This document shows positions 32,092 through 52,475 of a stretch of 64,000 nucleotides of DNA, piece after piece. The translations under genes were made by a program, and so were the position numbers. Every line of letters starts with the position of its first letter. Within the stretch, counting starts at the first letter, position 1. The DNA is from Frigoribacterium sp. Leaf8 (GTDB lineage: Bacteria > Actinomycetota > Actinomycetes > Actinomycetales > Microbacteriaceae), in assembly GCF_001421165.1 (NCBI RefSeq), contig NZ_LMKB01000005.1, forward strand, positions 879,874 through 943,873, given 5' to 3'. The notes beneath the pieces were generated by a model. That model saw nothing but the letters and a program-made list of their open reading frames with translations. It had not been told where the DNA came from and did no database searches.

Positions 32092-34528
<2,437 letters not shown>

Positions 34529-34588
34529 GGTGACTCCTGAGAAGGGGGACTGGGCGCGCCGGAGGACGGCTCACGCCTGCGTCCGGCG

Positions 34589-34594
34589 ATTCTA
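34589..34594 (-). promoter_or_regulatory. -10 hexamer of lysC
   Basis: TAGAAT on the minus strand lies about 60 bases before lysC, giving an mRNA with a normal leader. I see no lysine-riboswitch fold in that leader. Confidence 0.5.
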
Positions 34595-34653
34595 TTCGGT
34601 GTCGAGAGCGTGTGACGTACGTCGGTCGCGGGGCGTCATCGGCGCCTCTCCCC

Positions 34654-34659
34654 TACGGT
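34654..34659 (+). promoter_or_regulatory. -10 hexamer of the DUF1206 gene, leaderless
   Basis: TACGGT lies six bases before ATG 34666. Confidence 0.55.
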
Positions 34660-34665
34660 GGACCG

Positions 34666-35475: not shown

Positions 35476-35516
35476 CGGGCAGGCGCGCGCCGGACGGGTT
35501 CAGGAGGCGCGGGTCG

Positions 35517-36116: not shown

Positions 36117-36119
36117 GCG

Positions 36120-38687
36120 CTACTCGCTTCTCTGAGGCGTGACCCGGGGGGCGATCGTCTCTTCTTCGATGAACTGGGCCCCGAGGATCTCGCGCACGAC
36201 GGCCTCGCCGTAGCGCGACCCGGTGGGGATGCCCCGGCGCGGGTCACCGGTCGCCGCGCGACGCTCGGCCACCGACGGACCCGCACCGGCGGAGGCGGTC
36301 GGTGTGCTGGTGGCCGCTGTGGAGGGCGACGGGGCGGCGGCGGCGGGGCGAGCCGGGGGCACGTCGACCTCGGGCGGAGGAGGCGCGGCGTCGACCGTCG
36401 GGACGCCGCCGGGCGGTTCTTCGGTGATGTGCTCGGGTTCGTCGGGCTCGGGGGGCGGGGTCTGCGGGATGGGGGCGACGTCCCACCCGGTGACGGGGGT
36501 CGAGCCGCCGGACCGCCCGGCGGACGCGGACGCCGGAGCGCCGGACCGCCCCGCCGACGCGGGCGCCGGGGCGCCGGACCGCGCGGCGGCCTCGGGCGCC
36601 GCAGCCGGCGCGGGAGCCAGGGACGGGCTCGGCGCCGGCGACGCGGAGGCCTCGGGCGTCGACGACGTCGCGGCGGGGGCCGTGGCCCGGCCCGTCTCGG
36701 ACGGCGCCGACCCCGGAGACGCGGGCCCGGACGGCTGGCGTCCGGCCTCGGGCGCCGGTGTGGTCGACCGGCCGGTCTCTCGCGGCGCACCCGACGTGGC
36801 GGGAGGGGCGACGGCGTCGACGGGTGCACCCGTGGGGGTCGGGCCCGCGGGCCCGTCGCCCTCGACGCGGGCGATGTACTTCACCTTGACGCCGAGGACG
36901 TCGACGATCGCGCGTCGCAGGTACTCGCTGACGCCCTCGGCCGCGCCCTGCGGCCGCTTGAAGCTCTCGACGTCGTTGGCGCTGGGGAAGGCCAGCGTCA
37001 GCACGTCGTCGACGAAGTCGACGACGGTGGCCGTGACGACGACCATCCAGGCCGTGCGCCGCGCCTTCTGGACGACCTCGACGATCTCGGGCCAGCTGTC
37101 ACGCAACTGCTGGAGCGTGACGGGAGCCGCGCCGCTCCCGGACGCCTGGCCGGTGTCGGGGGTCTGTGCCCACGCGGCCGAGTGCGGTGCGGACGGAGGC
37201 GCGGGTTCGGTCGGCGTCGCGGAGTCGGCCTGGTCGGCCCGGGTGGCAGAGGTCGACGGAGCGGCCGTCGCCCAGGACGCCGTCGCACTCTCGACGGCCG
37301 ACGGGCCACCGGCCGCCTCGGTCGACGGCGTGGCCTCGACGGGCGAGGCGGGCGGGGCCGACGCGGACGGGGCCGACGCGGACGGGGCCGACGCGGACGG
37401 GGCCGACGCGGCGACGGGAGGCGTCGATCGACCCGCCGTCCGGACCTCGGCCGGCCGGGCAGCCGCCTGCGTCGACGGGGCAGCGGACGGACCGGGCACG
37501 GCGGACGGACCGGAGCCTGAGCCCTCGACCCCGACGCGTCGTTCGAGGCGCTCGACCCGGGCGAGGGCGCCCCGGCCGGTCTGGTCGCTCTCGGGGACGA
37601 GGACGCGCGCGATCATCAGTTCGAGGTGCAGCCGCGGCGAGGTGGCCCCGGTCATGTCGGTGAGAGCGCGGTTCACGACGTCGGCCGAGCGCGACAGCTC
37701 CGCGGCGCCGAAGGCGTGCGACTGGTGCACGAGACGGTCGAGCTCGTCAGCCGTGACGCCCCGCAACACGGCCGAGGCACCCTCGACGGTCGCTCCGACG
37801 ACGATGAGGTCGCGCAGGCGTTCGAGCAGGTCTTCGACGAACCGCCGAGGGTCTTGCCCGGTCTGGACGACGCGGTCGACCGCAGCGAACGCCGCGGCGC
37901 CGTCACGGGCGCCCAGCGCCTCGACGACGTCGTCGAGCAGCGATGCATGGGTGTACCCGAGCAGCGCGACGGCGCGCTCGTACTGGATGGCGCCGTCCTC
38001 ACTGCCGGCCATCAGCTGGTCGAGGAGCGAAAGGGTGTCGCGCACCGACCCGCCGCCGGCACGGACCACGAGCGGGAGCACGCCCGGGGCGGCCTCGACC
38101 GACTCGCTCTCGCAGAGTTCGTGGACGTACTCGAGCATCTGGGCCGGGGGCACGAGGCGGAACGGATAGTGGTGGGTGCGCGACCGGATGGTGCCGATCA
38201 CCTTGTCGGGCTCGGTGGTCGCGAAGATGAACTTGACGTGCTCGGGCGGTTCTTCGACGACCTTCAGCAGGGCGTTGAAGCCCTGCGGGGTGACCATGTG
38301 GGCCTCGTCGAGGATGAAGATCTTGAAGCGGTCGCGAGCCGGGGCGAACACGGCCCGGTCACGGATGTCGCGGGCGTCGTCGACGCCGTTGTGGCTGGCC
38401 GCGTCGATCTCGATGACGTCGAGCGAGCCGCCGCCGTCGCGTGAGAGCTCGACGCACGACGCACAGACGCCGCACGGGGTGTCGGTCGGGCCCTGGGCAC
38501 AGTTGAGGCAGCGGGCCAGGATGCGCGCGGACGTCGTCTTGCCGCAACCGCGCGGCCCGCTGAAGAGGTAGGCGTGGTTGACGCGGTTGGTGCGGAGTGC
38601 CGTGCGGAGCGGATCGGTCACCTGCGTCTGCCCGATGAGCTCGGCGAAGTTCTCTGGCCGGTAACGGCGATACAGGGCGGTGACCAC
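36120..38687 (-). CDS. dnaX: DNA polymerase III subunits gamma and tau
   Basis: The 855-residue clamp-loader ATPase has Walker A GPRGCGKT at residues 44-51 and a four-cysteine zinc module at Cys63, Cys72, Cys75 and Cys78. Walker B ILDEAH and the sensor FATTEPDKV follow. The C-terminal half is a long Pro/Ala/Ser/Thr-rich region with an APSAS repeat, interrupted by a conserved block near residues 520-600 (LRDSWPEIVEVVQKARR). No A-rich slippery site for gamma production is visible. The GTG start lacks a ribosome site; TACTCT stands six bases before it. Confidence 0.95.
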   Translation of the reverse strand: MVTALYRRYRPENFAELIGQTQVTDPLRTALRTNRVNHAYLFSGPRGCGKTTSARILARCLNCAQGPTDTPCGVCASCVELSRDGGGSLDVIEIDAASHNGVDDARDIRDRAVFAPARDRFKIFILDEAHMVTPQGFNALLKVVEEPPEHVKFIFATTEPDKVIGTIRSRTHHYPFRLVPPAQMLEYVHELCESESVEAAPGVLPLVVRAGGGSVRDTLSLLDQLMAGSEDGAIQYERAVALLGYTHASLLDDVVEALGARDGAAAFAAVDRVVQTGQDPRRFVEDLLERLRDLIVVGATVEGASAVLRGVTADELDRLVHQSHAFGAAELSRSADVVNRALTDMTGATSPRLHLELMIARVLVPESDQTGRGALARVERLERRVGVEGSGSGPSAVPGPSAAPSTQAAARPAEVRTAGRSTPPVAASAPSASAPSASAPSASAPPASPVEATPSTEAAGGPSAVESATASWATAAPSTSATRADQADSATPTEPAPPSAPHSAAWAQTPDTGQASGSGAAPVTLQQLRDSWPEIVEVVQKARRTAWMVVVTATVVDFVDDVLTLAFPSANDVESFKRPQGAAEGVSEYLRRAIVDVLGVKVKYIARVEGDGPAGPTPTGAPVDAVAPPATSGAPRETGRSTTPAPEAGRQPSGPASPGSAPSETGRATAPAATSSTPEASASPAPSPSLAPAPAAAPEAAARSGAPAPASAGRSGAPASASAGRSGGSTPVTGWDVAPIPQTPPPEPDEPEHITEEPPGGVPTVDAAPPPPEVDVPPARPAAAAPSPSTAATSTPTASAGAGPSVAERRAATGDPRRGIPTGSRYGEAVVREILGAQFIEEETIAPRVTPQRSE
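37354..37412. repeat. In-frame 15-bp tandem repeat in dnaX
   Basis: Four copies of GGGGCCGACGCGGAC, the last one incomplete, encode a five-residue Ala-Pro-Ser-Ala-Ser repeat in the disordered linker of DnaX. Copy number could vary without breaking the frame. Confidence 0.85.
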
Positions 38688-38693
38688 AGAGCA

Positions 38694-38699
38694 AGAGTA
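38694..38699 (-). promoter_or_regulatory. -10 hexamer of dnaX, leaderless
   Basis: TACTCT on the minus strand lies six bases before the GTG at 38687. Confidence 0.55.
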
Positions 38700-38771
38700 G
38701 TCGGGGCTACCGACAACGGTCGACGGCGGGAGTCGCCGTCGAGGGCCCCTCGCGGCGCCCCGGGCGCACGA

Positions 38772-38798
38772 GAGGGCCCGTCGTGTCGACGGGCCCTC
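38772..38798 (-). terminator. Terminator of the giant surface-protein gene
   Basis: A perfect 12-bp stem (38772-38783 with 38787-38798) and 3-base loop lies 25 bases after the stop codon and before the dnaX promoter. Confidence 0.75.
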
Positions 38799-38823
38799 GG
38801 GTGCGGCTCCCGGCCGGGGTGGA

Positions 38824-41800
38824 CTACTCGGCGGACCCCCTCGCGCGACGGCGGACCCTGGTCGCCGACACGAGGCCGAGGCCGATCAGCAAGGCGAAGG
38901 CCGCGAGCGAGAACCAGCCGAGGGCGTCCGACCCCGTGTACGCCAGGCCCGAGACGGAGCCGGTCGGGACCGCTCCCCCACCGGTGCCGGTGCCGTTACC
39001 GGTGCCGGTGCCGGTGCCGCCACCCGATCCGGGCAGACCCGGGAAGCCGGGGGTGCCAGGGGTCCCCGGGGTCCCGGGCGTCCCGGGAGTTCCCGGGTCG
39101 CCCGGCGTGCCCGGGGTCCCGCTGGCCGCCGCGACGGTGAACCCGGTGGTGACCGGGGCCGACGTGGCGCCCGCGATCGTCTCGGTCGCGGCGACCACGT
39201 GGGGTCCGACGGCGACGCCCGCGAGGACGACCGTCCAGCTCCCCGTCCCGGGGTCGGCCTGGACGACCTGCGCGGTGCCGTCGTCGAGCTGCACCGTCAC
39301 CGTGGCACCGGGTTCCGCCGTCCCGACGACCGTCACGGGCGTCGTGCCGCCGGTTCCGGCCTGCAGGACCGAGCCGGCCACCGGGCTGGTGATCACCACG
39401 GGGTCGACCGAGGCGATCAGGAGGTCCTGGCTCACCGTGGTCGTGCCCGCGTCCGCGGTCTGCGTCGCCGTGACGACGTAGGCGCCGACCGGGACGTCCG
39501 TGAAGTCGACCGCCCAGGTGCCGTCGGCCCCGACCGTCGCCGACTGCGTCGGCCCGCCGCCGAGATCCACCGTGACGAGCGCACCGGGTGTGCCGGTGCC
39601 CGTCACCGTGACGTCCTCGAGGCCGTTCCCGTCGACGTCGGCGATCAACGCGCCGGGTGCCGGCGAGGTGATGACGACGGCGTCGGTGCTCGCGGCCGGC
39701 GAGACCGTGAACACGACGGTCTCGGGGGCCGACACCGCGCCTCCCACGGTCTGGGTCACGGACAGGGTGTGCTGCCCCTGTTCGACCCCCACCAGGGTGG
39801 TGGACCAGGCGCCGTCGGCGTCCACGTCGACCACGACCGGGAGGCCGCCGTCGATGCTGACGGCCACCGAGGCGTTCGGCTGGGCCGAACCGCCGACCAG
39901 GACGTCCGCCGTCCCCGCCGTGCCCGCCGGCAGGATCGAGCCCTGTTCGGGCGAGGTGACCACGAGCGGCGCGACCTCGGCCGCGGGGGCGAGGGTGACG
40001 TCGACCGACGCGCTGCCGGTGACGACGCCGCCGACCGTCTGTTCGACGATCACGGTGCGGGTGCCGACCGGGACCGCCGGCAGGGTCACCGACCAGGTGC
40101 CCCCGTCGGTGACGGTGGCCGTCTGCGTGATGCCGCCGACGGAGACGGTGACGGTCGCTCCGGGCTCGCCCGTTCCGGTGACCGGCAGGTCGACGAAGCC
40201 GTCACCGTCGGTGTCGACGACGAGCTGTCCGTCGGCCGGCGAGGTGATGGTGGGCGCGGCGGCGGGGTCGGCCGGGACGGGCACGACGACCACCGAGACC
40301 TCGACGGGAGCGCTCGTGGCGCCTCCGATGGTCTGCACGGCCGAGACCGTGTGCGTCCCGGTGCCGAGCACGACCGGCACCTGCCACGAGCCCGAGGCGT
40401 CGACCGTCGTGGTGACGGGGTCTCCCCCGTCGACCGTGACGGCGACGGGTGCGCCCGGCTGCCCCTGGCCACGGACGACGACCGGCGCGGTGCCGGCGTC
40501 GCCCGCCTGGTACTGCTGGCCGTCGGTCGGTGCCGTGATCGTGAGCGTCGCGGCGGCCTCGACCACGACCGTGGTCGTGACCGGAGCCGACTCGACCCCG
40601 CCGACGGTCTGCGTCGCGGACACCACGTGCTCGCCCACGCCGACCCCCGCGAAGGTGGTCGACCAGTCGCCGTCGTCGTCCACGTCGACCGTGACGGCCG
40701 TGCCGTCGTCGAGCGTCACCGCGACGGTCGCGCCGGCCTGGGCCGAACCGGACACCGGCAGGTCCACCGTCGAGGCGGCGGACGGCACGAGGAGGCGCGT
40801 GCCCGTCGCCGGGTCGGTGATCCGGATCGGGTCTGCCGCGACCACCGCGAACGGCTGGGTCACGGGGACCGTCGTGACGGTGCCGTACTGCTGCACCACC
40901 GAGATCGGTCCGGCACCCACCGGCACCGCGTCGAAGGTCGTGGTCCACGCCCCCGTCGTCGGGTCGGCCGTGACGGCCTGGGTCAGGTCGCCACCGAGCG
41001 AGACCGTGACGGTCGCGCCGGGCTGGGCGGTGCCCGACACCGTGACCGGCGTCGTCCGGCCGTCGAGGACGACGACCGTGGCACCCGGGGCGGGCTCGGT
41101 GATGGTGACCGGGGTGCCGACCACCACGTCGAGCTGTTGGGTGGCGGGAGTCGTCGAACCGGCCGGCACCGTCTGCGTCACGACGACCGGGTACGAGCCG
41201 ACGGGCACGTCGCCCACCGTGACGGTCCAGGTGCCCTCGGGGGTCACCGTCGTCGTCTCGGAGAGGTCGTCGCCCACCGCGACCACGACCGTGGCGCCGG
41301 GCTGACCCGTGCCGGTGACCGTGACGTCGGTGGCGTCGTCGGCGTCACGGACGACGATCGACGACCCGGCGGGCGGCGAGGTGATCGTCACCGGGGCGGC
41401 CACGACGACCGACACGTCCCGCGTGATCGGGGTCGACACGACGCCGTCGACGGTCTGGGTGACCGAGGCGGTGCGGCCGCCGACCGGGACGCCGTCGACC
41501 GTGACGCTCCAGGCGCCGGTCGTCGGGTCGGCCACGACGGTCCCGACCAGGCCGTCACCGAGGTCGACCGTGACGGTCGCTCCGGGCTGGGCCGTGCCGG
41601 ACGCGACCACCGGGGCGGTGTCGCCCGCGGCGAGCACGACGACCGTCGTGCCGTCGGTGGGCCGGTCGACGACGAGACCCGCTGCCGCCGCGACCGTGAA
41701 CGGTTGCGTCGCCGCGGCCGAGGTCGCGCCTCGGATCGTCTGCGTGGCGGTCAGGGTGTAGTCGCCGACGGGGACTCCGTCGACGGTCGTCTGCCAGTCA

Positions 41801-44800
41801 CCCTCGGGCCCGACGGTGGCGCCGGCCGTGAGGCCCGTGCCGAGCGAGACGGCGATGGTGGCGCCGGGCTCACCGGTGCCCGAGACGACGACCGACGTGG
41901 TGCCGGCCGGGTCGAGCAGGGAGACCGTCGCACCGGGGGTGGGGGTGACGATCGCGGGCGCGGCGGGGGCCACGACGATCGACACGTCCCGCGTGACCGG
42001 GGTCGAGGTCGAGCCGTCGACGGTCTGCGTGACCGCGATGGTGCGGTCGCCGACCGGGACGCCCGGCACGGTGACGCTCCACGCGCCGGTCGTGCCGTCG
42101 GCCGTGACCGTGCCGGTCAGGTCGTCGCCGAGGTCGACGGCGATCGAGGCGCCCGGCTCGGCCGTGCCCGACACGACCAGGTCGGTCGTCGCGTCCGGCG
42201 TCGCCACCGCCACGACGGTCCCGACGGCCGGGGCCTCGATGACGACCGCGGCGGCGGAGACCACCGAGAGGGGTTGGGTGACGGCGGGCGACACCGAGGT
42301 GCCGAGCGCCTGGGTGGCGGTGAGCGTGCGCTCGCCGACCGTGACGCCGGCCACGACGACGCTCCAGGCGCCGGTGGTCGGGTCGGCGATCGTCGAGGCC
42401 ACGAGGTCGTCGCCGAGGTCGACGCGGACGGTCGCCCCGGGTGCGGCCGTGCCGCTGACCGTGACGGCCGTCGAGGCGGTCGCGTCGGCGACGGTCACGA
42501 CGTCACCGGGCTCGGGCTGCAGGACCTCCAACCCGGGACCGACCACGATCCGGAACCCGGCCGCGACGGGGGTCGAGGTCGTGCCGGCCACGGTCTGCGA
42601 CGCCGTCACCTGGTAGACGGCGGTCGGCAGGTCGGCGAAGAGGACGGACCAGTCGCCGGACGTCGGGTCGGCGGTCGTGGTGACGGCCGCTCCCCCGTTC
42701 AGTCGGACCGAGACCGGGGCGCCCGGGGACGCCGTGCCCGAGACGGGGACGTCCACGGTGCCGGCCGGGTCGAGCACCGTGAACACGGTGTCGTCCGGGT
42801 CGACGATGACGACCGGGGCGGCCGCGCGGATCTCGAACGAGCTCTCCTGCGCCGGGGAGGTGGTGCCGCCGATGCTCTGCGTCACCGACAGGTCGGCCGC
42901 GCCCACGGGCACGCCCGGGACGTCCACGGACCACCGGCCCGTGGCCGCGTCGGCCGTCGTCGTGGCGGCGAGGTCGGCGCCCGTCGCGGGATCGAGGACC
43001 ACGTCGACCGTGGCTCCCGCCGCGGCGGTGCCGGAGACGGTCACCGTGGTCACGACCTCGGGCCCGGCCACGTCGACGACGGAACCGTCGGCGGGGGTCA
43101 GGACGACGAGCGGGTCGCCGGCGAGGATGCGGACCACTCGGGTCTCGGGAGCCGAGACCGAGGTGCCCACGGTCTGGGTGGCGGTGACGGTCCGCGTGCC
43201 CACGGGCACCCCGGCGAAGGACACCGTCCAGGCACCCGTCGTGGTGCCGGAAGTGACCGTGTCGGTGAAGCCGTCGCCGAGGTCGACGCGGACGACCGCG
43301 CCCGGCTCGGCCTGGCCCGACACGACGAGCGTCGTGGTCGAGGACGGGTCGGCGAGGACGATCGGGACGCCGTCGGCCGGGGCGACGATGGTCAGCGGGG
43401 CGGCCGGGTCGATCGTCACGACGCGCGTGTCGGCCTGCTGGACGGTGTCCCGCACCGCCTGTGAGGCCCCGAGGACGCGCTCTCCGACGCCGACGCCGAC
43501 GAGCGTGACCGCCCAGGCCCCGGTGACGGGGTCGGCGAGGGTGCTGCCGACCTCGGCGCCGTCGAGGGTCACGGTGATCCGTGCGCCCGGCTGGGCGGTG
43601 CCGGCGACCGGGACGTCCTGCGTGGCCGCGGGCGAGGCGACGACGTAGCGGATGTCGGCGGCGGGCGTCGTGATGACCACGTCGGCCCCGGAGACGATCT
43701 CGAAGGCCCGGGTGACGGGCTCGGTGGTCGTCGTGCCACCGACCGTCTGGGTCGCGGAGGCGACCTGGTCACCCACGGGGACGCCCGGGACCGTGACGGA
43801 CCAGAGCCCGTCGGGCCCGGCGGTCGTCGGGACCACCACGCCGGCCAGGGTGACCTCGACGGACGCACCGGGGTAGGCCGTCCCGGTCACGACGACGGCG
43901 GTGGTGCTGTCGGCGCCGGCGACCGTGACGACGTCGCCGTCACCGGGTGCGGTGATGGAGAGGTCGGCCTCGGCCGAGACCACCGAGAAGTCCGTCGGCT
44001 CGGCCTCGAGGAGGTCGGGGCCCTGCTGCTGGCTCGCGCCCACGACGTGGTCGCCGACGGCGACCCCGGTCAGGACGAGGGACCAGGCACCCTGCGCGTT
44101 CGTGGCGACCGGGGCCCGGCCGACGCCGTCCACCGTGACGGTGACGGGCAGACCCGCCACGCCGGTGCCCGCGATGGTGACCGGTGCGGTCCCCTGGTCG
44201 TCGGCGACGACCAGACGGGTGCCGGGGACGGGCGCCGTGATGACGACGTCGCCGCCGACGCTGACCAGGACGTCCCGCGTGTCGGCGTCCGAGGTGGAGC
44301 CGTTGATGCTCTGGGTCACCGAGACCGTGTGCGGACCGACCGGGACGCCGTCGACCGTGACGGACCACTGGCCCGAGACCGGGACGACCACCTGGCCGAC
44401 GAGGCCGTCGCCGAGGTCGACCTCGACGGTCGCCCCGACCTGGCCCGTGCCCGAGACGACGACGGGCGTCGTGTCCTGCGGTCCCGGGACGAAGTACTCG
44501 GCGCCGTCGAGCGGTGCCGTGACGGCCAGGGGCGTGCCCTGCGCGATCGTCAGCGGCTGGGTCACCGGTGCCGAGGTGGTCCCGCCGAGGGTCTGAGTCG
44601 CACCGAGCGTGCGGACACCGGCGGGGACGTCGGGGATGACGGCGGTCCAGGCGCCCGTGGCGGGGTCGACCGTGGCAGGCACCTCGAAGCCGGCACCGAG
44701 GCCGACCGTGACGGTCGCCCCCGGGTCGGCCGTGCCGGTGACGGTCACGTCGGCCGTGGTGCCGCCGACGATCGGGATCGTGGCCCCGGGGGCCGGCGTC

Positions 44801-47784
44801 GAGATGGCGACCGGGGTCCCGGCGACGATCGTCACGACGCGCGTCTGCGCAGGCGACACGGTGCCGCCGACGGTCTGCGTCGCCGAGATCGTGCGCTGAC
44901 CGACGGGCACGCCGGCGACGTCCACCGACCAGGCGCCGGTCGTGGCGTCCGCCGTGACCCGGCCGGTGAGGCCGTCACCGAGGTCGACGCGGACGTCGGC
45001 GCCGACCTGGGCGGTGCCCGAGACGGTCAGCGTGGACAAGGAGGCGCTGTCGGCGACGCGCACCGTGGTGCCCTCGGCCGGGGCGAGGATGTCGAGCGGC
45101 GCACCGGCGGCGACCGTCAGCGGCTGCGTGACCGGCACCGAGACCACGCCCGCGACCGTCTGCGTGACGCTGATCGTCCGGGGCCCGACGGGCACGGACG
45201 ACACGGTGGCCGACCAGGCGCCCGTGGCGTCGGCCGTGGTCGTGGCCACGTAGCCGTCGCCCAGGTCCACGCGGACGGGGGCGTTCGGCTCGGCGGCTCC
45301 CGTCACCGTGACCGGGGTGGTCGAGGTGGCGTCGGCGACCGTGAGGGTCGCACCGGGCGCCGGCGTCGAGATCGTCACGCCGGTCGCGGCCAGGAGGGTG
45401 AAGTCGGTGGTCTGCGGGGCGGACACCGCGCCTCCCACCGTCTGCGTCGCGGTGGCCGTGTAGGTGGCGACCGGCAGGGCCGGGAAGGTCACGGACCAGG
45501 TGCCGTTGGGGGCGACCGTCGTGGTGAGGTCGCGGCCGCCGCCGAGGGTGACGGCGACCGGGGCCCCGGCCTGCCCGGCACCCGAGACGGTGACGTCACG
45601 CGTGGAGTCGGCTCCGGGCAGACGGTACTGCGTGCCGGAGGTCGGGCTCGTGATGGTCAGGCCCGTGCCGGCGACGACGCTGAAGGCGCGCGTCACGGCG
45701 GCGGAGACGTCTCCACCGAGGGCTTGGGTCACCGACGCGGTGTAGCCGCCGACGGGCACGCCCGGGACGGTCGTCGACCAGGTGCCGTCCGCGGCGACGA
45801 GGGCCGTGGCCGTGCGGCCGCCGCCCAGGTCGACGGCGACGGTGGCCGTGGGGGTCGCGGTGCCCGAGACGATCACGGGCGTCGTGGAGTCGGCGTCGAG
45901 GACCGTGAAGACGCGTCCGGCGGTGGGCGTGGTGACGACGAGCGGCTGCTGCGCGACGACGGTGAAGTCCCGCGTGACCGGGCCGGTGGTCGCGGTGCCG
46001 AGGGCCTGGGTCACGGAGGCGCTGTAGGCCCCTGCGGGCACGTTCGCGACGGTCACGCTCCAGCTGCCGTCCGCGGCGACCGTGCCGGTGCCCGTGAGAC
46101 CGGCACCGAGGTCGACCGTGACGGTGGCGCCGGGCTCGCCGGCACCGGTCAGCACGACGCTGCGCGTGGCGCCCGGGGAGGCCGGGACGACGAACACCTG
46201 CCCGGCGGTGGGCGTGGCGATGCTGAGGGGGGCGAGGGCCGCGGCGCGGACGGTGGAGGTCGCGAGGTCGACCCGGGACGCGTTCACCAGCGGGAGGACC
46301 GAGAGGCTGACCGCGTGGACGGAGCTCGAGCCGGCGTCGGTGCCTCGGCCGTCGCGGAAGCCCGCGCCGTCCTGGGCGTTGATCGTGACGCGGACGAGCT
46401 GGTTGAGCAGCGTCGTGAGAGGCGCGAGGGTCGTGACGACCGCGGCGGTCGTGGTGCGCAGGCTGGTCGTCGTGGCGGCGAGCGCCGTGCCGTTCACCAG
46501 GGGCGAGTAGAGGCCGCCCACGGTCGGCAGGAGGGACGTGGTGACGAGGGTCGTGACCGCTCCCGTCAGCACGCCCAGGCCGAGGGGTGCGGTGACGACC
46601 GTGGCGGCGGCCGGGGTCGTGCCGTCGATGAGCTGACCGACCGTCGTCGTCGTGGTGGCCCCGAGCGTCAGGTTCGCCCCCGCGAGACGCACGGGGACCT
46701 GCAGGTCGACGGTCAGCGCGGTCGACCGGATGGCGGCGTTCGCCGCGGCGACGAGGTTCGTCGGGAGCTGGTTCTGCAGGATGTCGGTCAGGCCGGCCGT
46801 CACGGCCGTGAGCGTGGCCGGGCTGAGCAGGTCGCTGTTCGCCGGCAGCCCGTTCAGTGCCTGCAGGTCGATGACGATCTCCCCGGTCGACGGGGTGAGG
46901 GTCACGATGCCCGAGGTGAGCGGACGCGCCAACTCGGTGTCGAGGGTCGACGTCAGGTCGACCCCGCCGCGGACGACGACGGTGGGCTGGCCGGCACTGG
47001 CGAGGGGGAGTGCGTTGACGAGGCCGACGAGCGGTGCGGTGACGGGGGCCACGGCGTTCGTCAGCGCGGCGGAACCGCCGACCGCGTCGACCGTCGACCC
47101 GAGACCGGTCACCGTGGTGCGGAGCGAGGAGGTGACGCCCGCGACCGCGGGGCTCGTGAGGGTGTAGCGGGCACCGGCGACCTGGTAGGCCGTCGTGGGC
47201 GTGGTGGCGGTGGCGCCCCGCTGCTGGGTGATCTGCGACGAGAGCGCGCCGAGCTGCAGGGTCACGTCGCTGAGGACGCCCTGCGTGGCGGGCACCTGGG
47301 CGAGCAGCGGCTGGAGACGGAGGGTGGTCTGCTGGGCCGGGCTGCCGTCGCCGACGGCGATCGAGCCGTCCTGGGCGATGAGACCGGCCGAGGCGGTGGC
47401 GCCGGTCGCGGTGGCGTTCGCGTACTGACCGTCGACGCCGAGGGTGAGCAGCCCGTTGCCCCCGAGGAGGCGGATGCCGTTGCCCAGACCGACCGTGAGC
47501 GCGTTGACGGCGGTGAGGTTCAGCGGGTTGCGCGACGTCGGCGGGTTCTGCGTGGTGCCGAAGGCCGAGTAGGCCCCGCCGAGTGCGGCGACCTGGTCGA
47601 GCGCGACGATGCCCGTTCCGCCGACGAGCGACGCCTCGGCCTCGCTGCGGTCGGTCGTGGCCGCCTGCGCGGGGACGACGACGACGAGCGCGCCGACGAC
47701 CGCCGCGACGACGGCGGCCGCCGTCGCCTTCAGTGCGCGGGACGCGTGGGAGCGCCGGGGACGCTCGATCGTCTGGCTTCGCAT
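38824..47784 (-). CDS. Giant cell-wall-anchored protein with 25 Ig-like repeats
   Basis: The 2986-residue secreted surface protein may be an adhesin or stalk. The signal peptide is residues 1-41 (ends VPAQA). Residues 45-518 resemble the choice-of-anchor G N-terminal domain of actinobacterial surface proteins. Residues 519-2888 form 25 tandem units of about 94 residues, each with GT-pattern strands, a PGATVTVDLG core, GAWSV and T-x-T-Q-T-V-G-G. A collagen-like run (2889-2919), Gly/Thr linker, LAYTG sorting signal (2947-2951), membrane helix and Arg-rich tail follow. LAxTG fits class E sortases. AGGAAGAGG precedes the ATG. Ligand and partner are unknown. The gene lies between dnaX and the SRP RNA gene. 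Confidence 0.9.
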   Translation of the reverse strand: MRSQTIERPRRSHASRALKATAAAVVAAVVGALVVVVPAQAATTDRSEAEASLVGGTGIVALDQVAALGGAYSAFGTTQNPPTSRNPLNLTAVNALTVGLGNGIRLLGGNGLLTLGVDGQYANATATGATASAGLIAQDGSIAVGDGSPAQQTTLRLQPLLAQVPATQGVLSDVTLQLGALSSQITQQRGATATTPTTAYQVAGARYTLTSPAVAGVTSSLRTTVTGLGSTVDAVGGSAALTNAVAPVTAPLVGLVNALPLASAGQPTVVVRGGVDLTSTLDTELARPLTSGIVTLTPSTGEIVIDLQALNGLPANSDLLSPATLTAVTAGLTDILQNQLPTNLVAAANAAIRSTALTVDLQVPVRLAGANLTLGATTTTTVGQLIDGTTPAAATVVTAPLGLGVLTGAVTTLVTTSLLPTVGGLYSPLVNGTALAATTTSLRTTTAAVVTTLAPLTTLLNQLVRVTINAQDGAGFRDGRGTDAGSSSVHAVSLSVLPLVNASRVDLATSTVRAAALAPLSIATPTAGQVFVVPASPGATRSVVLTGAGEPGATVTVDLGAGLTGTGTVAADGSWSVTVANVPAGAYSASVTQALGTATTGPVTRDFTVVAQQPLVVTTPTAGRVFTVLDADSTTPVIVSGTATPTATVAVDLGGGRTATALVAADGTWSTTVPGVPVGGYTASVTQALGGDVSAAVTRAFSVVAGTGLTITSPTSGTQYRLPGADSTRDVTVSGAGQAGAPVAVTLGGGRDLTTTVAPNGTWSVTFPALPVATYTATATQTVGGAVSAPQTTDFTLLAATGVTISTPAPGATLTVADATSTTPVTVTGAAEPNAPVRVDLGDGYVATTTADATGAWSATVSSVPVGPRTISVTQTVAGVVSVPVTQPLTVAAGAPLDILAPAEGTTVRVADSASLSTLTVSGTAQVGADVRVDLGDGLTGRVTADATTGAWSVDVAGVPVGQRTISATQTVGGTVSPAQTRVVTIVAGTPVAISTPAPGATIPIVGGTTADVTVTGTADPGATVTVGLGAGFEVPATVDPATGAWTAVIPDVPAGVRTLGATQTLGGTTSAPVTQPLTIAQGTPLAVTAPLDGAEYFVPGPQDTTPVVVSGTGQVGATVEVDLGDGLVGQVVVPVSGQWSVTVDGVPVGPHTVSVTQSINGSTSDADTRDVLVSVGGDVVITAPVPGTRLVVADDQGTAPVTIAGTGVAGLPVTVTVDGVGRAPVATNAQGAWSLVLTGVAVGDHVVGASQQQGPDLLEAEPTDFSVVSAEADLSITAPGDGDVVTVAGADSTTAVVVTGTAYPGASVEVTLAGVVVPTTAGPDGLWSVTVPGVPVGDQVASATQTVGGTTTTEPVTRAFEIVSGADVVITTPAADIRYVVASPAATQDVPVAGTAQPGARITVTLDGAEVGSTLADPVTGAWAVTLVGVGVGERVLGASQAVRDTVQQADTRVVTIDPAAPLTIVAPADGVPIVLADPSSTTTLVVSGQAEPGAVVRVDLGDGFTDTVTSGTTTGAWTVSFAGVPVGTRTVTATQTVGTSVSAPETRVVRILAGDPLVVLTPADGSVVDVAGPEVVTTVTVSGTAAAGATVDVVLDPATGADLAATTTADAATGRWSVDVPGVPVGAADLSVTQSIGGTTSPAQESSFEIRAAAPVVIVDPDDTVFTVLDPAGTVDVPVSGTASPGAPVSVRLNGGAAVTTTADPTSGDWSVLFADLPTAVYQVTASQTVAGTTSTPVAAGFRIVVGPGLEVLQPEPGDVVTVADATASTAVTVSGTAAPGATVRVDLGDDLVASTIADPTTGAWSVVVAGVTVGERTLTATQALGTSVSPAVTQPLSVVSAAAVVIEAPAVGTVVAVATPDATTDLVVSGTAEPGASIAVDLGDDLTGTVTADGTTGAWSVTVPGVPVGDRTIAVTQTVDGSTSTPVTRDVSIVVAPAAPAIVTPTPGATVSLLDPAGTTSVVVSGTGEPGATIAVSLGTGLTAGATVGPEGDWQTTVDGVPVGDYTLTATQTIRGATSAAATQPFTVAAAAGLVVDRPTDGTTVVVLAAGDTAPVVASGTAQPGATVTVDLGDGLVGTVVADPTTGAWSVTVDGVPVGGRTASVTQTVDGVVSTPITRDVSVVVAAPVTITSPPAGSSIVVRDADDATDVTVTGTGQPGATVVVAVGDDLSETTTVTPEGTWTVTVGDVPVGSYPVVVTQTVPAGSTTPATQQLDVVVGTPVTITEPAPGATVVVLDGRTTPVTVSGTAQPGATVTVSLGGDLTQAVTADPTTGAWTTTFDAVPVGAGPISVVQQYGTVTTVPVTQPFAVVAADPIRITDPATGTRLLVPSAASTVDLPVSGSAQAGATVAVTLDDGTAVTVDVDDDGDWSTTFAGVGVGEHVVSATQTVGGVESAPVTTTVVVEAAATLTITAPTDGQQYQAGDAGTAPVVVRGQGQPGAPVAVTVDGGDPVTTTVDASGSWQVPVVLGTGTHTVSAVQTIGGATSAPVEVSVVVVPVPADPAAAPTITSPADGQLVVDTDGDGFVDLPVTGTGEPGATVTVSVGGITQTATVTDGGTWSVTLPAVPVGTRTVIVEQTVGGVVTGSASVDVTLAPAAEVAPLVVTSPEQGSILPAGTAGTADVLVGGSAQPNASVAVSIDGGLPVVVDVDADGAWSTTLVGVEQGQHTLSVTQTVGGAVSAPETVVFTVSPAASTDAVVITSPAPGALIADVDGNGLEDVTVTGTGTPGALVTVDLGGGPTQSATVGADGTWAVDFTDVPVGAYVVTATQTADAGTTTVSQDLLIASVDPVVITSPVAGSVLQAGTGGTTPVTVVGTAEPGATVTVQLDDGTAQVVQADPGTGSWTVVLAGVAVGPHVVAATETIAGATSAPVTTGFTVAAASGTPGTPGDPGTPGTPGTPGTPGTPGFPGLPGSGGGTGTGTGNGTGTGGGAVPTGSVSGLAYTGSDALGWFSLAAFALLIGLGLVSATRVRRRARGSAE
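39028..39120 (-). other. Collagen-like Gly-X-Pro segment
   Basis: Ten consecutive Gly-X-Pro triplets, mostly Gly-Thr-Pro, lie between the last Ig-like unit and the Gly/Thr wall-spanning linker of the giant protein. Confidence 0.85.
39121..46230 (-). repeat. Array of 25 coding repeats of about 284 bp
   Basis: Residues 519-2888 are 25 units of 92-99 residues. No two neighbouring units are identical, so the array is old and diverged. The last five (39121-40548) differ from the first twenty and alternate two forms of the second strand. Confidence 0.9.
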
Positions 47785-48191
47785 GGGTGTGCCTCTTCCT
47801 GACGGGACGAGCCCGCCGCCTGATCCGAAGAACTCCCGCTGGTGAGGCGGGAGGTGCTGCTGTTCTGTTGTGTCGTCGCCGCGTCGCCGCCCGGGGACGA
47901 CGGCGAGGCGAACGGGACTACCGCGCGGTGCGCGGGCTCGTTCGCCTGGTGCGGGTGCTGCTGACGTGCCGTGGTGAGGGGCTCATCGGTCCTGATCCTG
48001 ATCGTGTGGTGCGGGTGCGACGGCGCCGTCGCGCGTGGTCGCACCGTGGTGAGGGGTGCGGCCGGAGCGGTGGTTGATCGCTCCCGACGAGCTGGTTCGG
48101 TCTCGTCGTGATGCCGAGCATAGGGGGCATCGCGCGGATCGCGCACCCCACGAAGGGGGGCCACGGGGCCTTCGGCCCCCAAAAGAGAAAT
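47785..48191. other. Leader/upstream region of the giant gene
   Basis: No gene is supported in these 407 bases. They hold the ribosome site, a 7-bp hairpin in the leader (47833-47839 with 47847-47853), an imperfect duplication at 47947-48056, and G/C-rich hairpins next to the SRP RNA 3' end (around 48147-48180). I could not place a promoter for the giant gene with confidence. Confidence 0.7.
47947..48056. repeat. Imperfect direct repeats upstream of the giant gene
   Basis: TGGTGCGGGTGC occurs at 47947 and 48007, and CCGTGGTGAGGGG at 47969 and 48044, giving two diverged copies of one segment. Confidence 0.6.
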
Positions 48192-48279
48192 GACCCCTCA
48201 CGCACCCGTCAGAGCCCGGTTACCCTTGCTGCATTTCTGCCCTGGGGGAATTGGCCTGGATGACGCCACGTGAGGAGCC
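48192..48279 (-). ncRNA. ffs: Signal recognition particle RNA, small bacterial type
   Basis: The 88-nt RNA pairs its ends (GGCUCCUCACG with CGUGAGGGGUC). Its apex is the SRP domain IV hairpin: CCAGGGCA, a GAAA tetraloop, then UGCAGCAAGGG. This preserves the symmetric-loop bases CAG and AGCA that bind Ffh. TAAACT (48286-48291) lies six bases before the 5' end. The closing helix followed by ATTTCTCTTTT can serve as its own terminator. In B. subtilis the homologous gene lies directly upstream of dnaX; here the giant surface-protein gene separates them. Confidence 0.9.
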
Positions 48280-48285
48280 TCGACG

Positions 48286-48291
48286 AGTTTA
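48286..48291 (-). promoter_or_regulatory. -10 hexamer of the SRP RNA gene
   Basis: TAAACT on the minus strand lies six bases before the inferred first base of the RNA. Confidence 0.7.
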
Positions 48292-48336
48292 GCGGCAACT
48301 GAGTGGTCGCCGCGACCCGGGGTGTTGCCTGGGGGC

Positions 48337-49017
48337 ATGAGAATCGTCATCGCCGGAGGACACGGCAAGATCGCCCAGCTCCTCGAACGCCGACTCGCCG
48401 ACGCCGGGCACGACCCCGTCGGCATCGTCCGCAACCCCGACCACACCGCCGACCTCGAGGCCGCGGGGGCCCGTGCCCTCGTCCTCGACCTCGAACGGAC
48501 CGACGTCGACACGCTCGCCGGCCACCTCGACGGGGCCGACGCCGTCGTGTTCGCCGCGGGCGGCGGCGGCAGCAGCGGCGCCGAGCGCAAGCTGACCATC
48601 GACCGCGACGGGGCCGTCCTCCTGGCCGACGCCGCCGAGAAGGCGGGCGTCACGCGCTACGTCATGGTCTCGGCCATCGGCACGGACGACTTCGACCCGG
48701 CGCGGGCCGAGCTGCCCGCCGCGAACGACGACGACGTGTACCAGGTGTACATGCGTGCGAAGAGCGAGGCCGACGCCGACCTCCGCCGTCGCGAGGGTCT
48801 GGACTGGACGATCGTCCGTCCCGGTGGCCTGACCGACGACGCCGGCACCGGCCAGGTCACGGTCGGCACGACCGTCGAGCGCGGCAGCATCCCCCGCGCG
48901 GACGTGGCCGAGATCATCGCCACCGCGCTGATCGAGGGCACCGCCGTCAAGACGCAGTTCGAGGCCGTCTCGGGCGACGTCACCGTCTCGGACGCGCTGG
49001 CGACCATCAAGTACTGA
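48337..49017 (+). CDS. NAD(P)-binding SDR-like protein
   Basis: The 226-residue atypical short-chain dehydrogenase-like protein belongs to the NmrA/NAD(P)H-binding group. It has the nucleotide motif RIVIAGGHGKIAQLLERRL, the strand VVFAAGGGGSSGAE, and a VMVSAIGTDD segment without the classical Tyr-x-x-x-Lys pair. Relatives include flavin-reductase-like proteins and redox sensors; the substrate is unknown. ATG 48337 is chosen over an upstream TTG (48322). It ends at a hairpin shared with ackA. Confidence 0.85.
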   Translation: MRIVIAGGHGKIAQLLERRLADAGHDPVGIVRNPDHTADLEAAGARALVLDLERTDVDTLAGHLDGADAVVFAAGGGGSSGAERKLTIDRDGAVLLADAAEKAGVTRYVMVSAIGTDDFDPARAELPAANDDDVYQVYMRAKSEADADLRRREGLDWTIVRPGGLTDDAGTGQVTVGTTVERGSIPRADVAEIIATALIEGTAVKTQFEAVSGDVTVSDALATIKY

Positions 49018-49058
49018 CCCGCGCCTCCTGGTCGTCCCCCGACCACGGAGTGACGGAC

Positions 49059-49096
49059 GAGAGCCCCGGAGGCGCGACCAGCGCACCGGGGCTCTC
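49059..49096. terminator. Bidirectional terminator between SDR gene and ackA
   Basis: A perfect 11-bp stem GAGAGCCCCGG/CCGGGGCTCTC with a 16-base loop lies between two convergent genes. Confidence 0.7.
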
Positions 49097-49137
49097 CCAC
49101 GTCTGAGGGTCGGTCGGGTCGTGCACCCGCAGACGCC

Positions 49138-50331
49138 TCAGCTGAGGGCGGCGGCCTGTCGCGCGATCTCGAGTTCTTCGTTCGTGGGGACGACGAGGAC
49201 GGACACCCTCGACCCCTCGGGCGAGATGTACCGCGCCTCGCGGGACGCGAGTTCGTTGCGGTCGTCGTCGACGTGGATGCCGAAGAACTCCAGGCCCAGG
49301 AGCGTCCGACGACGCAGCAGGGCGTTGTTCTCGCCGACCCCTGCCGTGAAGACGACGGCGTCGAGTCCCCCGAGCTGGGCGACGTAGGCACCGATGTAGT
49401 GCCGCAGGCGGTGCCGGTAGACGGCCAGCGCCGCCTCGGACACGGCGTCGCCCCGGGACGCGCTGTCCTGCACGTCGCGCATGTCGCCGCTGCCGGTGAG
49501 GCCGAGCAGCCCGCTGCCCTTGTTGAGCAACGTCTCGAGCTCGGCGAAGTCGAGTCCCGCCTCACGGTGGAGGTGGAACACGGCGGCGGGATCGATGTCG
49601 CCCGAGCGCGTGCCCATGACGAGCCCCTCGAGGGGCGTCATGCCCATGCTCGTGTCGATGGACCGTCCGCCGTCGATCGCGGCGGCCGACGCGCCGTTGC
49701 CGAGGTGCAGCACGATGGTCTTCAGCTCGGCCAGGGGGCGACCGAGGAACTCGGCGGTCTTCTCGCTCACGTACTTGTGCGACGTGCCGTGGAAGCCGAA
49801 GCGACGAACGTGGTGCTTCTTCGCCAGCTCGGCGTCGATCGCGTAGGTGTAGGCGGCGGGGGCGAGCGTCTGGTGGAACGCCGTGTCGAAGACCGCGACG
49901 TGGGGGACGTCGGGGAAGGCCTCCCGGGCCGCGCGGATGCCCTGCAGGTTGGCCGGGTTGTGCAGCGGGGCGAGGGCCGACAGGCGGTCGATCGCCTTCT
50001 CGACGTCGGGCGTGACGACCGTCGCGCGGTCGAACTCCTCTCCGCCGTGGACGACGCGGTGGCCCACCGCGACCGGCGGGTACTCGGCGAAGGACGGGCC
50101 GTGCGCCTCGAAGGCGGTCAGCATCGCGGCGAAGCCGGCGGCGTGGTCGGCGATCGGCTGGGTGTCGTTGCGGGTCTCGTCGCCCGTGACCTCGTTGCGG
50201 TGACGGGTCGACCCGACGTCCTCGCCGATGCGCTCGACGAGACCGCTCGCGAGCGTGCGCTCGCCCTCGAGCTCGATCAGCTGGTACTTGAACGACGACG
50301 AGCCGGAGTTGACGACGAGGACGGTGCTCAC
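49138..50331 (-). CDS. ackA: Acetate kinase
   Basis: The 397-residue enzyme interconverts acetyl phosphate and acetate with ATP formation. The acetokinase motif VNSGSSSFKYQLIE begins the protein. VGHRVVHGG and the C-terminal ATPase-fold blocks (HLGNGASAAAIDGG, GVGENNALLR) are intact. The GTG start forms a GTGA overlap with the pta stop, so the two enzymes are translationally coupled. The frame is open further upstream, but that sequence is pta read out of frame. Confidence 0.96.
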   Translation of the reverse strand: MSTVLVVNSGSSSFKYQLIELEGERTLASGLVERIGEDVGSTRHRNEVTGDETRNDTQPIADHAAGFAAMLTAFEAHGPSFAEYPPVAVGHRVVHGGEEFDRATVVTPDVEKAIDRLSALAPLHNPANLQGIRAAREAFPDVPHVAVFDTAFHQTLAPAAYTYAIDAELAKKHHVRRFGFHGTSHKYVSEKTAEFLGRPLAELKTIVLHLGNGASAAAIDGGRSIDTSMGMTPLEGLVMGTRSGDIDPAAVFHLHREAGLDFAELETLLNKGSGLLGLTGSGDMRDVQDSASRGDAVSEAALAVYRHRLRHYIGAYVAQLGGLDAVVFTAGVGENNALLRRRTLLGLEFFGIHVDDDRNELASREARYISPEGSRVSVLVVPTNEELEIARQAAALS

Positions 50332-52475
50332 GAGGAGGCTCCTTCGGTGCTGGTGACGGTGCCGGCGGCGGCTGCGGCCTGCGTGCCGGCCTGGATGGCC
50401 GTGATGGCGACGGTGTTGACGATGTCGCCGACGAGAGCCCCGCGGGACAGGTCGTTGATCGGCTTGCGGAGGCCCTGCAGGATGGGGCCGATCGCGACCG
50501 CACCCGCACTGCGCTGCACGGCCTTGTAGGTGTTGTTGCCCGTGTTGAGGTCGGGGAAGATGAACACCGTCGCCCGACCGGCGACCTCGGACTCCGGCAT
50601 CTTGGCGGCGGCCACCGTCGGGTCGGCCGCGGCGTCGTACTGGATCGGCCCCTCGACGAGCAGGTCGGGTCGGCGTTCGCGGACGAGTACCGTGGCGGCG
50701 CGGACCTTCTCGACGTCCGCACCCGAGCCGCTGTCGCCCGTGCTGTAGCTCAACATGGCGACGCGGGGCTCGATGCCGAACTGCTGTGCGGTCTGCGCCG
50801 ACGAGATCGCGATGTCGGCGAGTTGCTCGGCGGTCGGGTCGGGGATGACGGCGCAGTCGCCGTAGACCAGCACCCGGTCGGCGAGCGCCATGAGGAACAC
50901 GCTCGACACGACGCCGACGTCGGGCAGCGTCTTGATGACCTCGAAGGCGGGCCGGATGGTGTGCGCCGTGGTGTGCTTGGCGCCCGACACCATGCCGTCG
51001 GCGAGGCCGAGCTTCACCATCATCGTGCCGAAGTACGAGACGTCGGTCACGGTGTCCATCGCCTGGGAGACCGCGATGCCCTTGTGGGCCCGCAGCTTGG
51101 CGTACTCGGTCGCGAAGAGCACTTGCAGGCTGGGGTCGAACGGGTCGAGCACGCGGGCGGTGGCGAGGTCGAGACCGAGCTCGGCGCCCCGGGCGCGGAT
51201 GGCCGTCTCGTCGCCGAGCAACGTGATGGCGGCGACGCCGCGCTGCAACAGGGTGGACGCGGCCCGCAGCACCCGGTCGTCGTCGCCCTCGGGCATGACG
51301 ATGTGCTTCTGCGCGCCCCGCGCCCGCTCGAGCAGCTGGTACTCGAACATCAGGGGCGTCACCACCCCGGACGGGCTGACCTGCAGGAGGCGCAACAGCT
51401 CGGCCCCGTCGACGTGCGTCTCGAAGAGGGCCAGGGCGAGGTCGTACTTGCGCGGCGAGTCGGCGGCGAGGCGCCCGCGGGTCTGGGTGATGGCGAGGGC
51501 CGTGTCGTAGGTGCCGGTGCTCGTGGTCGCGATCGGCAGCGGGCTGTCGAGCCCTTCGAGCAGGCGCTCGACCTGCGGGGCGAGGGCGAACCCGCCGTTG
51601 AGCACGATGCCGGCGAGCGACGGGAAGGTCTCGGAGGCGTGGGCGAGCACCGTCGCGACGAGCACGTCCGAGCGGTCGCCCGGCACCACGACGACGGCAC
51701 CCTCGGTGAGTCGCGGCAGCACGTTCTCCATCGACATGGCTGCCACGACGACGCCGAGCGCCTCGCGGTCGAGCAGGGCGTCGTCGCCGCGCAGCAGGGT
51801 CGCACCGGTGGCCTGCAGCACGGCGCGCATCGTCGGAGCGACGAGGACGCGATCTTCCGGCAGCGTCCAGATCGGGACCCGCCCGGTGGGTGACGCCTCG
51901 AGGGCGTGGCCGATGCCGTCGACGACCTCGTCGAGGTGGTCGGGGTCGACCCGGTTGGCGACGACCGCCAGCAGGCTCGCGTGCTCGGAACGCAGCTCGG
52001 CGGTGGTCAGTTCGGCGACCTGGCGCATGTCGGCGCCCGAGCGCCGCGTCTGGCCGTCGGCGCTGCGGCCGCCGAGCACCAGCAGCACGGGCGCGCCGAG
52101 GTTGGCCGCGATGCGGGCGTTGTACGACAGCTCGGTGGGGCTGCCGACGTCGGTGTAGTCGGAACCGATCACCACGACCGCGTCGCACTGCCGCTCGACG
52201 GCGGCGAAGCGGCTCACGATGGTGGCGAGGGCGGCATCGGGATCGGCGTGCACCGCGTCGTAGCTGACGCCGACGCACTCGTCGTAGGCCAGGTCGACGC
52301 TGTCGTGCGACAGCAGGAGTTCGAGCACGTAGTCGCGCTCGTCGGTCGAGCGGGCGACGGGTCGGAACACCCCCACCCGGCCCACCTCGTGACTGAGCGT
52401 GTCGAGCACGCCCAGGGCGATCGTGGACTTGCCCGTGTGGCCTTCGGCAGAGGTGATGTAGATGCGTGTCGACAC
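50328..52475 (-). CDS. pta: Phosphate acetyltransferase, long form
   Basis: The 715-residue enzyme converts acetyl-CoA to acetyl phosphate. It is the long, three-domain type: a BioD-like P-loop domain (AEGHTGKSTIALGVL near residue 10), a middle DRTGG-type domain, and the C-terminal catalytic PTA domain (about residues 390-710, with VMPEGDDDRVLRAA and NTGNNTYKAVQRS). The N-terminal domains regulate the enzyme in other bacteria. GTG 52475 is supported by TAGGCT seven bases upstream. The divergent acetyltransferase gene starts 86 bases away. Confidence 0.95.
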   Translation of the reverse strand: MSTRIYITSAEGHTGKSTIALGVLDTLSHEVGRVGVFRPVARSTDERDYVLELLLSHDSVDLAYDECVGVSYDAVHADPDAALATIVSRFAAVERQCDAVVVIGSDYTDVGSPTELSYNARIAANLGAPVLLVLGGRSADGQTRRSGADMRQVAELTTAELRSEHASLLAVVANRVDPDHLDEVVDGIGHALEASPTGRVPIWTLPEDRVLVAPTMRAVLQATGATLLRGDDALLDREALGVVVAAMSMENVLPRLTEGAVVVVPGDRSDVLVATVLAHASETFPSLAGIVLNGGFALAPQVERLLEGLDSPLPIATTSTGTYDTALAITQTRGRLAADSPRKYDLALALFETHVDGAELLRLLQVSPSGVVTPLMFEYQLLERARGAQKHIVMPEGDDDRVLRAASTLLQRGVAAITLLGDETAIRARGAELGLDLATARVLDPFDPSLQVLFATEYAKLRAHKGIAVSQAMDTVTDVSYFGTMMVKLGLADGMVSGAKHTTAHTIRPAFEVIKTLPDVGVVSSVFLMALADRVLVYGDCAVIPDPTAEQLADIAISSAQTAQQFGIEPRVAMLSYSTGDSGSGADVEKVRAATVLVRERRPDLLVEGPIQYDAAADPTVAAAKMPESEVAGRATVFIFPDLNTGNNTYKAVQRSAGAVAIGPILQGLRKPINDLSRGALVGDIVNTVAITAIQAGTQAAAAAGTVTSTEGASS

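Follow-up and report, generated by a model that had tools for sequence, protein, structure and literature searches.

A giant LAYTG-bearing protein of Frigoribacterium sp. Leaf8 with a block-wise variable head: a candidate wall-anchored recognition fibre

What use might Frigoribacterium sp. Leaf8 have for a surface protein of 2,986 residues, and what would such a protein hold at its far end? The question is raised by one gene in the window (the whole 64,000-nucleotide stretch of contig NZ_LMKB01000005.1 that we analysed). A first-pass annotation, made from the letters alone, had read it as a single frame for a sorted surface protein: a choice-of-anchor G-like head of about 470 residues, 25 diverged Ig-like units, a collagen-like stalk and an LAYTG sorting signal. 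The answer we favour, with a probability of roughly 0.6, is a fibre for recognition that would be anchored to the wall and whose tip recombines. Three observations go beyond the first description: the interchange of stalks beneath the head, a variable block within the head, and an unanchored second copy of the head beside a SipW-like peptidase.

From signal peptide to sorting signal

The frame begins with ATG and has no internal stop, and its coordinates and counts are those first given for it. Its parts, and the neighbours that serve as syntenic markers, are as follows (positions are those of the window).

38824..47784, minus strand: whole gene, 2,986 amino acids, stop included in the span
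47662..47784, minus strand: signal peptide, residues 1-41, with an AxA-type end (AQA); cleavage judged by eye, with no prediction program
46249..47661, minus strand: choice-of-anchor G head, residues 42-512; NF033766 matches residues 45-319 at E 2.8e-55, the full extent being taken from relatives
46523..47170, minus strand: head residues 205-421, the variable block; protein identity 62% in the conspecific comparison, against 100% for the other head residues
39121..46230, minus strand: 25 Ig-like units (Big_6 / Ca_tandemer type), residues 519-2888; from profile, Pfam, NCBIfam and model
40198..40215, minus strand: DxDGDG loop of unit 22 (DTDGDG, residues 2524-2529)
39622..39639, minus strand: DxDGNG loop of unit 24 (DVDGNG, residues 2716-2721)
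39022..39120, minus strand: short collagen-like linker of 11 G-X-Y triplets, residues 2889-2921
38932..38946, minus strand: LAYTG sorting motif, residues 2947-2951
38827..38931, minus strand: remainder of the sorting signal (hydrophobic part, basic tail)
48322..49017, plus strand: upstream neighbour of SDR/NAD(P)-binding type, syntenic marker, named by eye
36120..38687, minus strand: downstream neighbour DnaX, syntenic marker, named by eye
35517-36116: RecR, after DnaX, syntenic marker, named by eye

The signal peptide and the complete sorting signal are present, as the first-pass annotation had them. The collagen-like stalk is there too, but it is short, and a Gly/Thr-rich linker follows it to about residue 2945. 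Frame length by itself is weak evidence for a gene in GC-rich DNA, where antisense frames also run long: two lie over this gene (39199-43464, plus strand, 1,421 aa; 44047-47802, plus strand, 1,251 aa), and at L034 an antisense frame of 4,163 codons exceeds the length of the gene itself. They have the look of side effects of GC-rich codons, and an annotation could take them for genes. That the gene is real is shown by what its domains match and by six further genomes of the genus, which carry the same frame with 25 units. Scanning the gene region gave no promoter site and one terminator-like site (plus strand), and a tRNA search of 33000-52000 found none.

At the C terminus, LAYTG, hydrophobic stretch and basic tail make up the signal pattern of a class E sortase substrate. 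The genome encodes three sortases: one of class E (L001; NF033747, 232.8 bits, cut-off 160) and two that are class F-like, at 159.8 bits (just below) and 173.8 bits (above) against the class F cut-off of 166. Each of the 16 genomes of the genus has exactly one class E match above cut-off. A profile built from 14 sorting signals finds 24 matches in the genome at E 10; among the best 20 of these 24 loci, 18 read LA[FYW]TG followed by a hydrophobic stretch and basic tail, this gene included, and none reads LPxTG. The HRTTYG of L001 aligns with HRRTYG of 5go5; the aligned partner is 5go5 and not SrtE1 (5cuw), whose Tyr229 is proposed in PMC5148588 to favour LAXTG. The same paper states that class E sortases prefer LAXTG, and PMC8603203 reports that adhesion of Bifidobacterium bifidum requires a class E sortase. 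The expectation of such an enzyme, first drawn from the motif, was borne out by the genome, and we infer that the single class E sortase would link the protein to the wall. At L002 (363-1923, plus strand) the gene for a small secreted protein that ends in a hydrophobic stretch and basic tail without LAxTG directly precedes the gene of a class F-like sortase, and its product is a possible substrate of that enzyme. Known class E substrates have the LAXTG signal and the enzyme in common with our protein. They include the chaplins, which promote aerial hyphae (PMC5148588), and CwpA/CwpB of Actinoplanes, described in PMC13251363 as hydrophobic wall proteins. The present protein differs from both as a long multi-domain fibre, by prediction.

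A long thin surface structure is also what one expects of sortase-polymerised pili. We reject that alternative here: the protein is a single chain, lysine is absent from all 2,945 mature residues, and none of the three sortases passes the cut-off of the class C model (44.5 bits against 160). The mature protein has no cysteine either, and the lack of both residues argues against Lys-based pilin polymerisation, isopeptide bonds and disulphides. Six other 25-unit orthologues are likewise free of lysine, and two 32-unit orthologues have 6 and 4. As a special trait the Lys-free composition counts for little, being common among the genome's sorted proteins: 11 of the 17 other LAxTG proteins (L112-L128) also lack it over the residues, 300 at most, that lead up to the motif.

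A spacer-like array and interchangeable stalks

Between head and linker, an iterated profile search of the protein places 25 units of 92-99 residues, the number first read from the sequence. They are diverged, as the first reading also had it, with a mean pairwise identity of 41% (27-63%). NCBIfam's NF033510 (Ca_tandemer) likewise marks 25 stretches (392.4 bits, cut-off 50), Pfam's PF17936 (Big_6) marks 13 (191.5 bits, cut-off 27.6), and BiPBP_C in Pfam matches one. A model of adjacent units, 17-19, is all-beta with a pLDDT of 97.4. Foldseek ranks animal FN3 and Ig tandems first for these three units (E 2.1e-10, top-row TM about 0.3), which we read as a general Ig-like fold and not as close kinship.

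Is this an array in motion, expanding and homogenising as repeats may? Comparison among genomes argues otherwise. The unit number is again 25 in six other genomes of the genus (the profile counts 25 in five, and 26 in G004, where it splits the last unit). In five of the six, unit i best matches unit i at all 25 places, and in G004 at 24 of 25. Per-unit identity in register is 70-100%; inside our own protein a unit's best match to another averages 54%. Two other species have 32 units, of which the first four and last five pair in order with our units 1-4 and 21-25. On these alignments the order of the array is fixed and is not being homogenised, and a phase-variable or homogenising array is ruled out by units that hold their place across genomes at so low a mutual identity.

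The repeats have relatives among Ca2+-stabilised tandem adhesin repeats. Besides the NF033510 match, the closest solved sequences are the MpAFP RII tetra-tandemer (4p99, E 2.8e-12) and a biofilm-associated surface protein (7dm0). Here, however, the best acidic column is filled in 14 of 25 units, and Asp or Glu falls in the seven residues preceding a unit in 12 of 25 linkers, at no constant position. Only near the wall are DxDxDG-type loops constant: that of unit 24 in 9/9 orthologues and that of unit 22 in 8/9, both located by distance from the C terminus. As far as sequence can tell, no set of calcium ligands is kept throughout the array; calcium stabilisation is not supported for its whole length and may concern the units near the wall. 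Export differs as well. MpAFP leaves the cell by type I secretion, whereas this protein has a signal peptide and a sortase signal.

What the array does is best judged from what replaces it. The gene is flanked by the SDR-type gene on one side, with AckA beyond, and by DnaX/RecR on the other. Across 16 loci of the genus (L027-L042, from 15 genomes besides our own), SDR and AckA are present in 11, and DnaX too in ten of those 11; the L041 locus is cut by a contig end. Five loci with IPT-looking stalks (L035-L038 and L042) have none of the SDR, AckA and DnaX neighbours. What these five Frigoribacterium genomes encode amounts to a separate line of head proteins, in which stalks of IPT/TIG look end in LAFTG or LAYTG, and one genome (G009) carries both types. 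In Curtobacterium, three loci (L082, L083, L085) have all four neighbours, one (L087) has SDR and AckA, and L084 has none of the four. Locus L088 has none of them either.

The stalks that relatives have at the AckA-SDR-gene-DnaX site consist of 20, 25 or 32 Ig units, or of GTDVTG-type repeats. In three Frigoribacterium genomes an orthologous head at this same site leads into two Ig units, which give way to GTDVTG-like repeats. One of these (L039/L089) is intact with LAYTG in frame; in another (L040/L090) the head's frame stops before the signal and LAYTG lies further on in another frame, at a locus that has unread bases; the third (L041/L086) is F. faeni. Further afield, 20 giant proteins hand-chosen from 20 other genera of the family, one per genus, follow the head with Ig, IPT/TIG-looking (by eye), Ala-rich low-complexity, TTTPG or GTDAAG stalks, and 15 of them have an LAxTG or LPxTG signal in frame while five do not. 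What the stalk types have in common is a head and a distance, so the array is best read as a spacer, and from sequence it looks like one. If an Ig-like unit spans about 4 nm, twenty-five of them in extended form would make a spacer of fixed length, roughly 100 nm, that keeps the head off the wall.

The head and its variable block

The head was assigned correctly at first pass: NF033766, the choice-of-anchor G model, matches over its full length (1-283 of 283) with 188.3 bits against a cut-off of 45. The family's name implies varied C-terminal anchoring. Its model covers only residues 45-319 of our head, and neither the allelic block described below nor the copy beside a SipW-like peptidase is part of what the name conveys. 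Matches above cut-off occur in 16/16 genomes of the genus (ours included), in 97 of 249 genomes and 44 of 85 genera of the family, and in 5 of 396 genomes sampled across the phylum, a count that rises to 6 at E 0.001, with three of the six lying within the family. The head sits in an open frame of at least 2,000 codons, stop to stop, in 24 of the 249 family genomes, and a pattern scan of species genomes gave 54 matches, 15 of which encode relatives (nine Frigoribacterium, five Curtobacterium and one Microbacteriaceae bacterium). Such an architecture is ordinary for the family and no rarity. The frame is unbroken in the strain and relatives carry it; neither of the two checks set at first pass, on the frame and on a sortase in the genome, went against the first reading. 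Calling the fibre undescribed was right in one sense. The open-licence literature searched has no paper that names choice-of-anchor G, or choice-of-anchor with sortase in Actinobacteria (which does not prove absence), nothing on a giant adhesin in Microbacteriaceae, and no title on such a fibre under Curtobacterium sortase or phage receptor, Frigoribacterium adhesin or actinobacterial SipW/TasA. As a statement of rarity it fails, given those 24 long frames and the NCBIfam models that exist for head and repeats.

Where the head becomes informative is in a comparison of our genome with a conspecific one, G005. In 150-bp steps the locus is 95-100% identical, except for five steps from 47,250 to 46,650 at 61-87%. 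Of 270 differing columns (gaps counted), 220 fall in 46523-47170, none in the rest of the head and 50 in the rest of the gene; the block is 648 of 8,961 bp, which puts log10 P at about -198. Block dS is 0.73 and dN 0.34, both being 0 in the remaining head. With dN below dS, amino-acid changes as such are not in excess. The two genomes are the one conspecific pair in our set for this comparison, and the alleles they carry have different relatives: our block shares 90-91% identity with the G013 and G010 alleles, and that of G005 shares 79-80% with the alleles of G007, G004 and G008. An AU test on the block tree rejects a clade of the two conspecific alleles (p 2e-11). In the tree of the remaining head our sequence equals that of G005 and groups with G013 and G010, which makes G005 the likelier recipient of a foreign block; our own allele may be the older one. 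The alignments and trees bear the mark of recombination in which a diverged allele replaced the block, and not of rapid point mutation. Among the parts of the head, the block is one of the best modelled (pLDDT 78-94 in 10-residue steps), and it is probably folded, not disordered. Its middle (about residues 281-350), both within 46523-47170 and at L075, is more conserved than the flanking halves.

How general is the block? In one species of another genus, g50, eight 100-column steps at 50-65% (one at 84%) lie at the same block, between steps of 85-100% DNA identity. The block is less conserved than other head parts in 55/55 pairs of Frigoribacterium, 15/15 of Curtobacterium/PS02332 and 2/3 of g50. 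A test of six genera with preset boundaries, g50 being included again, found it less conserved in 23 of 31 within-genus pairs. The gap reached at least 20 points in only three of these, all from g50, all sharing L075 and two already in the earlier tally, and in the other eight pairs the block was not less conserved; in g82 it was the better conserved part. The head-only second copy, described below, shows a similar block between species groups, and none in the conspecific pair. Strong allelic blocks are a finding for two genera, not for the family.

We take the head for a recognition domain on three grounds: it is placed at the tip, it stays constant while stalks change, and it has an allelic block. 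That two conspecific genomes should differ so sharply in this block, and be near-identical elsewhere in the gene, suggests from sequence that the tip recognises something.

A second head, and what the fibre may do

The genome encodes a second choice-of-anchor G protein, which ends eight residues after its head and has no anchor. Its locus (L043, 4294-8664, minus strand; G000 C5 near 652465) encodes a SipW-like peptidase, two proteins with AAWTDSE, one with LAFTG, and the unanchored head, ordered on one strand as AAWTDSE ORF, signal peptidase I, LAFTG protein, head-only copy. The N terminus of the head-only copy reads AAWTDSE, like that of the upstream ORF, and AxWTDxE is a mark of SipW substrates, a role that no model confirmed here. 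By its match to TIGR02228 (53.2 bits, cut-off 51.85) the peptidase is an archaeal-type signal peptidase I. A SipW-like peptidase is found on the same strand at 17 of 20 loci picked as head-only, four of them in the genus and 16 elsewhere in the family. Two of the three loci that lack it have tails of 192 and 229 residues; the third, L146, is truly head-only.

This locus suggests a different role, in which the head would build matrix or join fibres, anchored giants would tie cells into a biofilm matrix, and other parts, the unanchored copy among them, would be exported through the SipW-like locus. The company that our head-only copy keeps (AAWTDSE ORF, SipW-like peptidase, LAFTG protein) speaks for such a role, as does the lack of the peptidase at all 35 stalked loci, read with the caution that 20 of these 35 controls had only 0.9-1.8 kb of upstream sequence, in which the peptidase would hardly be visible, so that 15 make a fair control, and that five of the 35 have no sorting signal seen in frame. 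Yet TasA and CalY models do not match the AAWTDSE ORF, the peptidase scores far under the SipW equivalog cut-off (30.3 of 190 bits), and a passive part of a matrix has no need of block-wise variation. We consider the matrix role unlikely, though one to be taken seriously.

Sharp allelic replacement in a presumably exposed tip is also a mark of receptors under balancing selection. The head might then be mainly a target of phages, predators or competitors, the block an escape from them, and its ancestral task adhesion or none. None of 50,697 phage records searched holds a relative of the head, which leaves no decoy in view (plasmids gave no match either), and we know of no phage or rival that uses a choice-of-anchor G head. 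The untethered head-only copy, moreover, shows a similar block between species: two congeners are 65-66% identical to four other genomes within the block and 89-91% elsewhere, a split that agrees with the species split of DnaX. Between our genome and G005 that copy has no block (94-100% per 300 columns). Pairwise, its block is less conserved in 12 of 15 Frigoribacterium pairs (not lower in three) and in one of two others, the g32 pair being reversed. Escape as the main explanation strikes us as improbable.

Might the head on its stalk instead act as an enzyme, or carry lipids? The structure prediction of the head called for at first pass yields an uneven model (AlphaFold, 16 sequences, mean pLDDT 71.9, model residues 1-84 and 435-444 below 50), in which long helices lie next to hairpins, and SPLUNC1, a BPI-fold lipid binder, occurs among the PDB matches (ranks 13, 15 and 26) with probabilities of at most 0.13. 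Foldseek of the head against the PDB and viral models gives nothing at E 0.001 (best PDB E 0.1), and hence no significant fold match; cysteine is lacking; and of the 14 residues invariant over 20 diverse heads, ten are Gly, Leu, Ala or Pro, the rest being one each of Tyr, Ser, Asp and Asn, with no evident catalytic set. We give this possibility very little credence. A profile of the head does find 18 chains among PDB sequences. Designed Cake proteins lead the list, with E 1.3e-9 over 24 positions and no single stretch passing, and the cavin chains start at E 0.026; we put both down to chance resemblance of repeats and low-complexity sequence. Least likely of all is an ice-binding, cold-adapted adhesin in the manner of MpAFP: the genus name hints at cold habitats and the solved repeat closest in sequence is from MpAFP, but that match is confined to the stalk repeats and neither Pfam nor NCBIfam shows an ice-binding domain.

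That leaves the recognition fibre as the reading we prefer. The signal peptide would direct secretion, the single class E sortase would join the protein to the wall at LAYTG, the array would hold the head at its distance, and the head, a putative recognition or binding domain, would be the working part, with its central 217 residues swappable as a block. The block probably swaps because the head meets something variable, perhaps the surface of a plant or microbe, perhaps another cell, perhaps a phage.

A wider proposal is possible, with the odds against it: choice-of-anchor G heads might form a modular recognition system of the Microbacteriaceae, with a recombining block of about 217 residues, set on interchangeable long stalks sorted by class E enzymes or left unanchored through a SipW-like locus, such that one bacterium presents two heads displayed in different ways. 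Sortase display and SipW-like export would be linked by a common head domain.

For the organism, a family known by its database name becomes a surface system that can be tested, with a candidate binding region (residues 205-421), a spacer-like part and an informative pair of genomes. Bacteria of the Frigoribacterium type live on leaves and in air. If the block does set partner specificity, it would offer a genetic handle on strain-level recognition in such leaf- and air-associated bacteria; and if the modular system is real, its polymorphism would set the strain-specific partners of each bacterium, be they host surface, kin or phage.
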